Assembly: GCA_018262985.1 (NCBI GenBank)
Contig: JADFDI010000001.1
Location: 248,001-312,000, forward strand
Length of the DNA stretch: 64,000 bases
Source of the DNA: Spirochaetota bacterium
Lineage (GTDB): Bacteria > Spirochaetota > Spirochaetia > Treponematales > UBA12059
Direction: 5' to 3'
The position numbers and the translations under genes are program-made. The notes beneath the pieces are model-generated. The model did no database searches. It saw nothing but the letters and a program-made list of their open reading frames with translations, and had not been told where the DNA came from. Of this stretch, positions 1,699 to 29,936 are shown in pieces (position 1 is the stretch's first letter; the number at the start of each line of letters is the position of its first letter).

Positions 1699-3641
1699 AC
1701 GCCTCGGACCTCGCGGCGCGCTCCCTTGCCGACGCGCGCGCGCTCCGGCGCGGGACGCTCCGCGCCGCCGGCCTCCTCGCCGCATCCCTGCTTCTCGTGA
1801 CGGGCGCCGCCTGCTCCTCCGCGGCGCGCCGCTCCGGCGAGGGGGCCGAAGCGGCGGCCGAGGCGGCGCTCCCGCTTCCCCTCGCCACCGGCGCCATTCC
1901 CCCGGACGCCATCTGCCGGGATCCCGCCGCGAGGGCCGAGGCACGGGCGCGCGACCTCCTTGCCCGCATGACGCTCGAGGAGAAGGTCGGCCAGATGACC
2001 CAGGCGGCCCGCGACTACATCCTCGGCGCGGAGGAGGACATCGGCGCCTACGGCCTCGGCTCGCTCCTCTCCGGCGGCGGCTCGGGGCCGAGGACGAACA
2101 CCCCGGCGGCCTGGGCCGACATGTACGACCGCTACCAGAGGGCCGCGCTTTCGAGCCGGCTCGGCATCCCCATGATCTACGGCATCGACGCCGTCCACGG
2201 CAACAACAACGTCCGCGGCTCCACCATCTTCCCGCACAACATCGGCATGGGCGCGACGCGGAACCCCGAGCTGGTCCGCGAAGCCGCCCGCGTCACGGCG
2301 GTCGAGGTCGCGGCCACGGGAGTCGACTGGACCTTCGCCCCCTGCGTGGCGCCCGTGCGGGACATCCGCTGGGGCCGCACCTACGAGGGCTACTCGGAGG
2401 ACCCCGTCCTCGCGGGCCTCCTCGGCGAGGCGGCGGTCCGCGGCTTCCAGGAGGGCTCCGCCGCCGACTCCATCCTGGCCACGGCCAAGCACTACCTCGG
2501 CGACGGCGGGACGGAGGGCGGCGTCGACCGCGGCGACGTCCGCGTGGACGAGGCGACGCTTCGTTCGCTTTTCCTTGCTCCCTACCTGCCTTCGCTCGGG
2601 GCCGGCGCGGGCTCGGTCATGGTCTCGTTCTCGAGCTGGAACGGGCAGCCCATGCACCAGAACCGCTACCTGATAACGGAAGTGCTGAAGGGCGAGCTCG
2701 GTTTCCGGGGCATCGTCGTCTCCGACTGGGCGGGCGTGCGCGAGGCCCCCGGCGATCCCGTCACCCAGGCGAGGCTCGCGATCAACGCCGGCATCGACCT
2801 CGTGATGGTGCCGGACGACTACAAGGGCTTCATCGACACCCTGCTGGGCCTGGTCCGCTCGGGCGAGGTGCCGGCGGAACGGATCGACGACGCCGTCCTC
2901 CGCATCCTCGAGGCGAAGTTCAGGATCGGCCTCTTCGAGCGACCCTGGGCCGAGCGGAGCCTGCTGGAATCCGTCGGGAGCCCCGGGCATCGCGCCGTCG
3001 CGAGGCGGGCCGTGCGGGAATCCCAGGTCCTCCTCAAGGACGAGGGCCTGCTTCCCCTGCCGAAAACCGGGCGCATCCTGCTCGCGGGTTCGGCGGCGGA
3101 CAACGTGGGCCTCCAGTGCGGCGGCTGGACCCTCACCTGGCAGGGACTCTCGGGCAACGCGGTGCCGGGCACGAGCCTCCTGGAAGCCCTGCGCGAGGTG
3201 GGCGGATCCGGCGTCGAAGTCGTCGTCGTGGAGGATCCGGAGGCGATAGCCGCCTTGATGAAGGATGGCGACCTGGCCATCGTGGCGAGCGGGGAGCGGC
3301 CCTACGCCGAGGGGCAGGGGGACGACCGCGTCCTCGCCTTCCGCCCCGCCGACCTCGAGTACATCAGGGCTTTCGAGGCGGCCGGCGTCCCGGTTCTCAC
3401 GGTGCTGTTCTCGGGCAGGCCCCTCATGATCGGGGAGGCCCTCGCGTCGAGCCGGGCCTTCGTCGCGGGCTTCCTGCCCGGCACCGAGGCGGGCGGGCTC
3501 GCGGACCTCCTGTTCGGCGACGCTCCCTTCACGGGGAAGCTGCCCTACACCTGGCCCGACTCGGTCGACGCCATCCCGATCCAGTCCACGGCGCCCGCGC
3601 CCGGCGTCCTCTTTCCGCGCGGCTGGGGCCTGGGCGGCTGA
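1695..3641 (+). CDS. Glycoside hydrolase family 3 beta-glucosidase, lipoprotein
   Basis: This 648-residue protein should release glucose from the non-reducing end of beta-glucans or cello-oligosaccharides outside the cytoplasmic membrane. The GTG start overlaps the previous stop; it precedes a hydrophobic segment ending in Cys40, which looks like a lenient lipobox (GAAC). The GH3 N-terminal barrel shows MTLEEKVGQM, IPMIYGIDAVHGNN, DIRWGRTYEGYSEDP, KHYLGDGGTEGGVDRGD and the nucleophile motif VVSDWAG. The C-terminal alpha/beta sandwich follows from about residue 440 (RRAVRESQVLLKDEGLLPLP). Length and motifs match the exo-glucanase/BglX-like branch of GH3. It ends about 50 bases before a terminator hairpin shared with the convergent glmS. 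Exact substrate is not readable from sequence. Confidence 0.93.
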   Translation: MNASDLAARSLADARALRRGTLRAAGLLAASLLLVTGAACSSAARRSGEGAEAAAEAALPLPLATGAIPPDAICRDPAARAEARARDLLARMTLEEKVGQMTQAARDYILGAEEDIGAYGLGSLLSGGGSGPRTNTPAAWADMYDRYQRAALSSRLGIPMIYGIDAVHGNNNVRGSTIFPHNIGMGATRNPELVREAARVTAVEVAATGVDWTFAPCVAPVRDIRWGRTYEGYSEDPVLAGLLGEAAVRGFQEGSAADSILATAKHYLGDGGTEGGVDRGDVRVDEATLRSLFLAPYLPSLGAGAGSVMVSFSSWNGQPMHQNRYLITEVLKGELGFRGIVVSDWAGVREAPGDPVTQARLAINAGIDLVMVPDDYKGFIDTLLGLVRSGEVPAERIDDAVLRILEAKFRIGLFERPWAERSLLESVGSPGHRAVARRAVRESQVLLKDEGLLPLPKTGRILLAGSAADNVGLQCGGWTLTWQGLSGNAVPGTSLLEALREVGGSGVEVVVVEDPEAIAALMKDGDLAIVASGERPYAEGQGDDRVLAFRPADLEYIRAFEAAGVPVLTVLFSGRPLMIGEALASSRAFVAGFLPGTEAGGLADLLFGDAPFTGKLPYTWPDSVDAIPIQSTAPAPGVLFPRGWGLGG

Positions 3642-26568: not shown

Positions 26569-26584
26569 GTAGACGGCCGTCTAC
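26569..26584. promoter_or_regulatory. Perfect 16-bp palindrome, candidate operator
   Basis: GTAGACGGCCGTCTAC is its own reverse complement and ends 12 bases before the ATG at 26597. It overlaps the predicted -35 and lies upstream of a TATCAT -10. Its position fits an autoregulatory site for the LuxR-type regulator encoded second in this operon. Confidence 0.55.
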
Positions 26585-26598
26585 GGCTCCTGTATCAT
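26570..26598 (+). promoter_or_regulatory. Putative promoter of the membrane-LuxR operon
   Basis: TAGACG (26570-26575), 17 bases, TATCAT (26593-26598). The -10 overlaps ATG 26597 and ends seven bases before an in-frame GTG at 26606, the leaderless spacing seen elsewhere here. Confidence 0.4.
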
Positions 26599-27136
26599 GC
26601 CCGGCGTGGAAACCGCGGACATCGAGCCGACCTGGGACCGACTCGCCGCCCTCGCCGCCGAGGCGCTCCGGATGGATCCGGACGAGGCCGCGCGCTTCCG
26701 CGACAACCGCGTCGCTAAGCTCGTCGGGCTCCTGCCCTTCGCGGCCGGCTGCGACGACGCGGAGCGCGCCGCGCTCGCCCACCTCGCCGTCTATGTCGTC
26801 GCGGGGCGCGGCGGCGCGCGCGCGGTCTTCGACCACGCGCCCGGCGACGACGTCGAGCCGCTCGCGCGACTTTCGACCATAGCGGATTTCCCGGGCGGCG
26901 ACCCGGACGTCCTCGCGCGCGGCATGGCCCTGCTCGGCCTCTGCATGCTGGCGGGTTACCGGCGCGACGCCGCGAAGGATCTCGCCTCCGGTGAATACAA
27001 CCCCATCAATTCAGGCGCATGGGACTCAGGCCGCGTCGAGGCGGCCCTGCTCGCCGACGCGCGGGCCGTCGACCCGGGCGTCCTCGACGCGATCATGACC
27101 GAAACACAAGCCCTCGAAGGCTATTGGGAGATTTGA
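26597..27136 (+). CDS. Unknown cytoplasmic protein coupled to a membrane LuxR regulator
   Basis: 179 residues, mostly helical and acidic, with no signal, membrane helix or motif that I recognise. Its middle (LAVYVVAGRGGARAVFDHAPGDD) and C-terminus (GEYNPINSGAWD, MTETQALEGYWEI) may be useful search seeds. There is no Shine-Dalgarno site. The ATG at 26597 is used, but a TATCAT -10 overlaps it, so the in-frame GTG at 26606 may be the true, leaderless start. The downstream regulator begins one base after its stop, so the two form an operon and probably one functional pair. It could be the regulator's signal-handling partner; that is only an inference from the pairing. Confidence 0.7.
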   Translation: MPGVETADIEPTWDRLAALAAEALRMDPDEAARFRDNRVAKLVGLLPFAAGCDDAERAALAHLAVYVVAGRGGARAVFDHAPGDDVEPLARLSTIADFPGGDPDVLARGMALLGLCMLAGYRRDAAKDLASGEYNPINSGAWDSGRVEAALLADARAVDPGVLDAIMTETQALEGYWEI

Positions 27137-27137
27137 C

Positions 27138-27854
27138 ATGACGAACAAGCTGCGCGCCACCGGAATCCTTTTTACCATCGTCTTCGCGCTTGGCATCCTC
27201 GTCGCGGTGGCCGGAGCCTACCTGCGCACGCGCGACCTCATGTTCGCGATAAGCCATCCGTACGTCCTCGTCATGGGGGCGTCCGCCGCGCTCCTCCTGC
27301 TCAGCGCATTCGTCGATCGCCTGCGTTGGCTGCAACCAATCCTGTTCCTGGTGACGGCGCCTCTTTCAATCATCACCGATTCGCGCGGCATCTACGGGCT
27401 CGGCTTCTTCATCGTCGGGGTGTTGCTCCTGGAGCGGGCCGGTTTCTTCCTGAAGCGCCGCGCGCCGAAGGTGGCCTTGCTCGGGGCATACCTGCTCGCG
27501 GTCGAGATCGCGGCGGCCGTCCTCTCCAAAAACTCCCCCGTCAGCGCCCTCGCGCCCACCTTCTTCATCGCGGCCTTCGCGCTCTTCCTCTGGTTCCTCT
27601 ACAAGGACCGGCTCGTGATCCACCTCGCCGAGCCGAAGGCGAAGCTGTCGTTGACGGAGAAGGGTCTTTCCAACGCCGAGCGCGCCTACGTCTTCGAGAT
27701 GACCCGGGGCAAGCAGCAGAAGGAAGTCGCCATCGACTTCGAGGTGGCCGAGTCCACCGTGCGCAACACCTTGGCCCGCGCCTACCACAAGCTCGGCGTC
27801 GAGGACAAGGCCGGTCTCGCGGTTCTCGCGGAGAAATTCGAGATCGTGGACTGA
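27138..27854 (+). CDS. Membrane-anchored LuxR-type transcriptional regulator
   Basis: 238 residues. Five or six hydrophobic helices occupy residues 8-156, followed by a charged linker and a C-terminal LuxR/GerE helix-turn-helix at about 176-235 (GLSNAERAYVFEMTRGKQQK, then VAESTVRNTLARAYHKLGV and DKAGLAVLAEKF). It is a one-component regulator that would bind DNA while embedded in the membrane and so sense a membrane or lipid-soluble signal; that reading is inference from architecture. It starts one base after the preceding gene. A 16-bp palindrome in front of the operon is a plausible binding site. A terminator follows directly. Confidence 0.85.
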   Translation: MTNKLRATGILFTIVFALGILVAVAGAYLRTRDLMFAISHPYVLVMGASAALLLLSAFVDRLRWLQPILFLVTAPLSIITDSRGIYGLGFFIVGVLLLERAGFFLKRRAPKVALLGAYLLAVEIAAAVLSKNSPVSALAPTFFIAAFALFLWFLYKDRLVIHLAEPKAKLSLTEKGLSNAERAYVFEMTRGKQQKEVAIDFEVAESTVRNTLARAYHKLGVEDKAGLAVLAEKFEIVD

Positions 27855-27857
27855 AGT

Positions 27858-27887
27858 GCGGGGGCCGGCAGCGGCCCCCGCTTTCCT
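27858..27887 (+). terminator. Terminator of the membrane-LuxR operon
   Basis: GCGGGGGCC (27858-27866) pairs with GGCCCCCGC (27873-27881) around a six-base loop, then TTTCCTT. Confidence 0.7.
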
Positions 27888-29115: not shown

Positions 29116-29144
29116 ATTGTATCTCGGAATAGAAACAATAACAA
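29116..29144 (-). promoter_or_regulatory. Promoter of the DUF4382 lipoprotein gene
   Basis: On the minus strand TTGTTA (29139-29144), 17 bases, TACAAT (29116-29121), with a short leader containing AGGAGG. One of the strongest consensus promoters in the window. Confidence 0.6.
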
Positions 29145-29233
29145 GGAGGCAGCGGTCGGACCGGGGGACGCGGCGCGATCGCGCGCGCCGGCGGCGTGCC
29201 GGAACGGGCCCGGCGGCCCGCTCCGACGCGCGG

Positions 29234-29936
29234 TTACCTGCCGATTTCCTTGAGCCGCGCCTCGATGCCTGAGCCCGAGAGCGCCTTGACGAAGGCTTCG
29301 GCGTCCGCGCGCGTTCCCTCGTACATGCCCCAGTGGATCGGGATGGCCAGGGCGGGCTTCACGTCCTTGACGGCCTCGACCGCCTCGGCCACCGAGCCCA
29401 TGGTGTAGGTCTGGCCGAGCGGCAGCAGCATGAGGTCGGCGCGCGCGCTTCATCTCCGGAATCCGCTCGGTGTCCCCGGTCACGTAGACGCGAACGCCGT
29501 CCGCCTCGATCACGTAGCCGACCCAGCCGTTCGATTTCGGGTGGAATTTCGTCTTGACCAGGTTGTAGGCGCTCACGGCCTCGATTACGCAGAAGCCCAG
29601 GTCCACGCGGTCGCCCACCGCGATTTTCTGGAAGCCGGGCGCGTCGAAGGGCGCGAGCTTGACGGCGTCCGGCGCCGCTATCCGTTCGATGTCCGCGGGG
29701 CTGTAGTGGTCGTCGTGGCGGTGGGTGACGAGCACCAGGTCCGCCTTGGCGAGGCCGACCGGAAGCTTGAAGGGGTCGACGGCCACGAGCTTGCCGCCCG
29801 CGGGAAAGGTGACGGAGTCCTGCCCGTACCAGCGGAGCTTCGAGGCCAGCGCCTCGACGGCGGGCGGAACCTGGGCCGGAAGCCCCGAAGCCATGGCGGT
29901 CAGGGTCGCCGCGAAAAGCAGCCTCATCGTGGACAT
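29234..29936 (-). pseudogene. MBL-fold metallo-hydrolase, secreted, interrupted by a frameshift
   Basis: Two frames together give one complete metallo-beta-lactamase-fold protein of about 233 residues. The first (from ATG 29936, with GGAGG upstream) has a signal peptide, the metal motif THRHDDHYSP and YVTGDTERIPEMK. The second (ending at 29234) continues LMLLPLGQTYTMGS, then AIPIHWGMYEGTRADAEAF, with the late His ligand. The switch occurs near 29436-29455, where the minus strand reads ATGAAG followed by an alternating GC run: deleting one base restores the frame. Either this is a recent inactivating slip, a sequencing or assembly error, or programmed slippage. Without repair the protein ends in an unrelated tail. 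Confidence 0.8.

Follow-up and report, generated by a model that had tools for sequence, protein, structure and literature searches.

Little is understood of how membrane-held transcription factors are reached by signals and locate their DNA sites. LuxR solos, which sense acyl-homoserine lactones, combine a GerE helix-turn-helix with a palindromic operator. In Coriobacteriia, the LuxR regulators DadR, HcdR and CadR carry 10–12 TM helices followed by a C-terminal LuxR/GerE helix-turn-helix, and regulators of the DadR type switch on genes for metabolic enzymes when the substrates are present (PMC9734109). Spirochaetota are reportedly rich in membrane-held transcription factors (PMC10269533). In VtrA/VtrC and ToxR/ToxS a membrane-held factor and a small partner, encoded by adjacent or overlapping genes, make up a two-gene cassette (PMC9214523), an arrangement shared by the locus described here. 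The locus lies in a window of 64,000 nt, to whose positions all coordinates given without a locus handle refer, within a 3.44 Mb genome (G000); G001 denotes a sister species of the same genus. The features of the cassette are as follows.

26569-26584, no strand assigned: perfect 16-bp palindrome GTAGACGGCCGTCTAC, the probable (predicted) operator of the ORF2 regulator, with conserved arms and a free 4-bp centre.
26570-26598, forward strand: sigma-70-like promoter TAGACG-17-TATCAT from the promoter scan, its -35 within the palindrome.
26606-27136, forward strand: ORF1, an all-helical soluble protein of 176 aa from an undescribed family, with a probable GTG start (alternative ATG at 26597, 179 aa).
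27126-27130, forward strand: GGGAG, a Shine-Dalgarno-like site of ORF2 read from the sequence, 7 bases 5' of the ORF2 ATG.
27138-27854, forward strand: ORF2, 238 aa, six membrane helices and then a GerE helix-turn-helix (Pfam match, hydropathy).
27666-27830, forward strand: GerE DNA-binding domain of ORF2, residues 177-231 (PF00196), with recognition helix ESTVRNTLARAYHKL.
27858-27881, forward strand: intrinsic terminator with 10 G-C pairs, between convergent genes.

ORF2 is a single chain that joins membrane helices to a DNA-binding domain, with neither kinase nor receiver. Six long hydrophobic helices lie within a 154-residue membrane part, and the GerE match scores 26.3 bits (5.7e-6; cut-off 23.5); how the domains are placed relative to each other is less certain in the structure model (pTM 0.54). 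With its LuxR/GerE-type C-terminal helix-turn-helix, ORF2 has the make-up of a transmembrane one-component regulator. Like the DadR type, it is a single polypeptide that would act from the membrane, a polytopic membrane domain preceding a C-terminal LuxR/GerE helix-turn-helix, a likeness drawn from published descriptions; that type has 10–12 helices as against six in ORF2, and the available sections of PMC9734109 mention no small cytoplasmic partner family such as ORF1. The transmembrane transcription regulators surveyed in PMC10269533 are, like ORF2, one-component and membrane-held; the words LuxR and GerE are absent from the text of that survey, and its available sections describe no dedicated cytoplasmic partner, whereas ORF1 is present here. 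In VtrA/VtrC and ToxR/ToxS the partner is tethered to the membrane and carries its sensor domain in the periplasm (PMC9214523), whereas ORF1 has no membrane helix and is the first gene of the operon, and ORF2, with its six helices, lacks a periplasmic domain. By the pairing counts given below, ORF1 is a small adjacent partner gene kept with its regulator, as is expected of a co-component. The solos that sense acyl-homoserine lactones resemble ORF2 in the GerE helix-turn-helix and the palindromic operator, which for ORF2 is predicted, but ORF2 has a membrane module and no autoinducer-binding domain appears among its Pfam matches. Nor is the pair a two-component system, since Pfam places no histidine kinase or receiver domain in ORF1 or ORF2, although one distant partner carries HisKA_2 and one HATPase. 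The first-pass annotation knew of no described system of exactly this form, and the open-licence papers searched yielded no GerE regulator that has six helices and a soluble partner in the cytoplasm. The cassette points to a simple signalling device that is apparently not yet described.

That annotation had described ORF1 as a 179-residue protein of no recognised family, encoded one base before a six-helix membrane protein ending in a LuxR/GerE helix-turn-helix. The one-base spacing (ORF1 stop TGA 27134-27136, ORF2 ATG at 27138) and the architecture of ORF2 are as stated, and ORF1 gave no match in the Pfam, NCBIfam, PHROGs and PADLOC family libraries; its length, however, is probably 176 aa, with a start at GTG 26606 likelier than at ATG 26597 because G001 carries ATC at the matching codon. 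With the -10 of the cassette promoter 7 bases before this GTG, a leaderless mRNA is probable; in several relatives the -10 is followed by 6-7 bases and then an ATG. A PDB sequence search with ORF1 returned weak, unrelated matches only, none of them credible, and by its sequence ORF1 is a member of an undescribed protein family. TerB, prompted by a loose motif likeness, was rejected, as PF05099 matched 0/30 relatives, several of them carrying ORF1. An AlphaFold2 model built from 17 sequences is globular and all-helical (pLDDT 92.6, pTM 0.89), and the top 19-residue hydropathy is 1.2. Invariant polar residues in the closer family are R54, H59, H77, D81, R88, D125, Y131 and N132; all but the first two show no variation across 26 aligned ORF1 sequences, and in distant members (L100-L105) several invariant residues are altered, for example R54 and H59. 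Mean column identity across families is 42% for ORF1 vs 29% for the regulator.

ORF1 relatives are present in 33/197 relatives and in 28/393 genomes drawn from the phylum. The named contigs that carry them are Spirochaetota MAGs, plasmid records gave no ORF1 match and IMG/VR gave one matching record. The family has so far been found in Spirochaetota only; collections from outside the phylum were covered with one query sequence or a peptide pattern of narrow scope. Whether ORF1 homologues always neighbour a membrane LuxR protein had been put forward as a test, and the pairing is close to general: a membrane regulator lies directly 3' of ORF1 on the same strand in 30/30 loci first examined, which were drawn from the search of 197 relatives (the L028 pair spans a run of N and L029 lies in broken frames), and 13 further, more distant loci show the same arrangement. 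Gaps between the two genes range from -11 to +71 bases in 22 measured pairs. "Always" is nevertheless too strong. Three loci depart from the pairing, namely G460, where a hexokinase gene comes next and there is no membrane partner, G025, which is truncated and divergent, and G447, which is truncated, and two partners are kinase-type. One ORF1 partner in G413 shares the membrane module (BLASTP 2e-15 over 192 aa) but has HisKA_2 replacing GerE, whereas a GerE domain is present in the partner of the other G413 copy. The gene after ORF1 in G225 encodes a membrane protein that contains a HATPase domain, the membrane likeness being weak. An apparent ORF1-regulator fusion in G051 (L028) was discarded, as the joined frame crosses a stretch of N. 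The genes flanking the cassette mostly differ among relatives, with no conserved targets beside it.

The regulator also occurs without ORF1, in 14/30 regulator loci, and ORF1 is thus not essential to it. In small-genome relatives (L055-L063), ORF1-less membrane GerE regulators lie between VanZ-like and MazG-like genes, named by eye and not by Pfam; loss of ORF1 would be the simpler history for this group because distant members possess the pair. In G000, two further membrane GerE regulators of 298 aa each stand in tandem (L157 2210-4157), without ORF1 and without the box. The IMG/VR record, L167, is classed viral and carries ORF1 and a membrane regulator at 1938-3605, with a box CTTGTAGACATTTGTCTACAAG between the cassette and an Xis-like HTH gene; the recognition helix of its regulator is divergent. 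The viral classification and the Xis-like neighbour suggest that mobile elements may carry the cassette.

Within the cassette promoter, the palindrome is indeed perfect and in the place first assigned to it, but it does not simply sit upstream of the promoter: it spans the -35 together with the first bases of the spacer. The promoter scan covered 1.6 kb and gave one sigma-70-like site, vs 0.1 expected. An exact copy of GTAGACGGCCGTCTAC occurs once in the 3.44 Mb genome, the relaxed form GTAGACN4GTCTA has one match in G000, the cassette promoter, and likewise in G001, and in both genomes the cassette site is the only match to the strict form TGTAGACN4GTCTACA at <=1 mismatch. In G001 the promoter is retained, as are the two arms of the palindrome, around a different centre (GGCT). 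No second box site is evident genome-wide in G000. A regulon built from two-mismatch sites was rejected, with 7 matches each in G000 and G001, cassette site included, vs 2-4 in the control, as was an SOS-box reading of the palindrome, given the single site in G000. The terminator credited to the cassette alone is present as a stem of 10 G-C pairs, but its location between convergent genes (a DUF4382 lipoprotein gene, convergent with the cassette, ends at 27887) means that it may serve both.

Among relatives, TAGAC-N4-GTCTA lies upstream of 8/19 cassettes (families f1 and f4 plus two relatives) and of 6/13 ORF1-less regulators, with 0.0 expected from Markov shuffles in either case. Conservation of the palindrome upstream of the pairs, the other test proposed at the outset, is therefore borne out for the arms in these cassettes, but the exact box is missing upstream of 11/19 in the f1/f4 set and of all cassettes outside it. 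Genome-wide, the strict box is found in 12/119 genomes, and control matches are nearly none. In family f1, GTAGACN4GTCTA is present in 12/12 genomes with the regulator vs 0/11 without it, a split with a chance of ~7e-7 assuming independent genomes, which relatives are not, so that the counts overstate significance. The same contrast is repeated inside genera, in g1 (G000 and G001 vs G002) and in g5. ORF1-less regulators retain the recognition helix STVRNT..R.Y.K and have lost the membrane-module residues F16, G87, R108, E123 and F142 conserved in cassettes, in a comparison that ignores lineage. Because these regulators keep both box and recognition helix, and because the box co-occurs with the regulator, the palindrome is the predicted operator of the regulator and does not belong to ORF1.

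In genus g5 the cassettes have no box; there the box precedes receiver-HisKA_2 kinase genes in G006, G018, G020 and G022. It also precedes an Hpt/CheA-like gene in the first of these genomes, G006, and a receiver gene standing alone in G020. In G071 a box pair precedes a receiver-sigma54 gene. This distribution suggests a broader signalling regulon in relatives. In G020, three tandem boxes about 32 bases apart (L164 4050-4127) lie upstream of the lone receiver gene.

We consider it rather probable that the cassette encodes a transmembrane one-component regulator that controls its own expression, together with a co-component dedicated to it in the cytoplasm. The original description, a self-contained one-component cassette, fits the pairing and is too narrow for relatives, where the box stands before other signalling genes and two partners are kinase-type. 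The computations show that the genes pair, that the operator is conserved and co-occurs with the regulator in the family, what fold and topology are predicted, and that the output domain is exchangeable; DNA binding, the sign of regulation, contact between ORF1 and ORF2, and the signal are inferred. Six helices joined by short loops would hold ORF2 in the membrane, with both of its termini on the inner side, and its GerE domain would bind TAGAC-N4-GTCTA as a dimer. As the box covers the -35 and spacer, ORF2 most likely represses its own operon. In relatives with the box 5' of the -35 (G010, G015, G017 and others) activation would be possible, and the sign may differ with box position. ORF1 would be made first, from a leaderless message, with its translation probably coupled to that of ORF2, and most likely contacts the cytoplasmic face of the membrane module to relay or gate the signal. 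Since short loops leave little outside the membrane, this signal may lie in or near the membrane or reach ORF2 from the cytoplasm via ORF1. ORF1 stays beside the membrane module even with a kinase output, which suggests that it acts with this module rather than with the GerE domain.

Alternatively, ORF1 could act as an enzyme on a small molecule sensed by ORF2, making or removing it, or could buffer it as a binding protein, with no contact between the two. Many invariant polar residues in the closer ORF1 family would suit such a role, and ORF1 is still paired when the output is a kinase, although a co-component explains that equally. We regard this as unlikely, given that sequence searches match ORF1 to no enzyme family and no solved structure, and that several of the invariant residues change in L100-L105, unlike a catalytic set. 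A different doubt concerns the palindrome, which might be the site of another regulator, of the GerE or some other family, acting on this promoter and on signalling genes while ORF2 has its targets elsewhere. The box before receiver-kinase genes in g5, where cassettes lack it, would be accounted for in this way, as would the position of the L167 box between the cassette and the Xis-like gene, though the recognition helix of that regulator diverges. The co-occurrence of the box with this regulator across f1 genomes, its presence upstream of regulators that have no ORF1 and the single genome site, at the cassette, in both G000 and G001 nevertheless make a separate regulator quite unlikely.

It is very improbable that ORF1 and ORF2 are neighbours by chance or operon inertia and that the palindrome is accidental. 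Adjacency can persist without shared function and regulators do occur alone, but the pair is preserved in many families and throughout the class with mostly different genes on either side, and the palindrome arms are kept while the centre varies, as in G001. The pairing counts, the upstream box counts and the f1 co-occurrence all contradict such an explanation.

That a kinase naturally takes the place of GerE suggests a sensing unit made up of ORF1 and the membrane module. By a bolder extension, which we advance tentatively and with some doubt, ORF1 may represent a new, so far undescribed class of cytoplasmic co-component that gates a six-helix receptor with exchangeable output, mostly LuxR-type and in a few cases a histidine kinase, as a modular device widespread in Spirochaetota. 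The cassette offers a compact test case, with a minimal membrane module, a nameless partner family and a defined candidate operator that occurs once in G000. Elsewhere in the window, on the reverse strand at 29121-29936, a gene of the metallo-beta-lactamase fold (Lactamase_B_3) is seemingly frameshifted, its C-terminal part lying in another frame, and appears to be a pseudogene or an assembly error.
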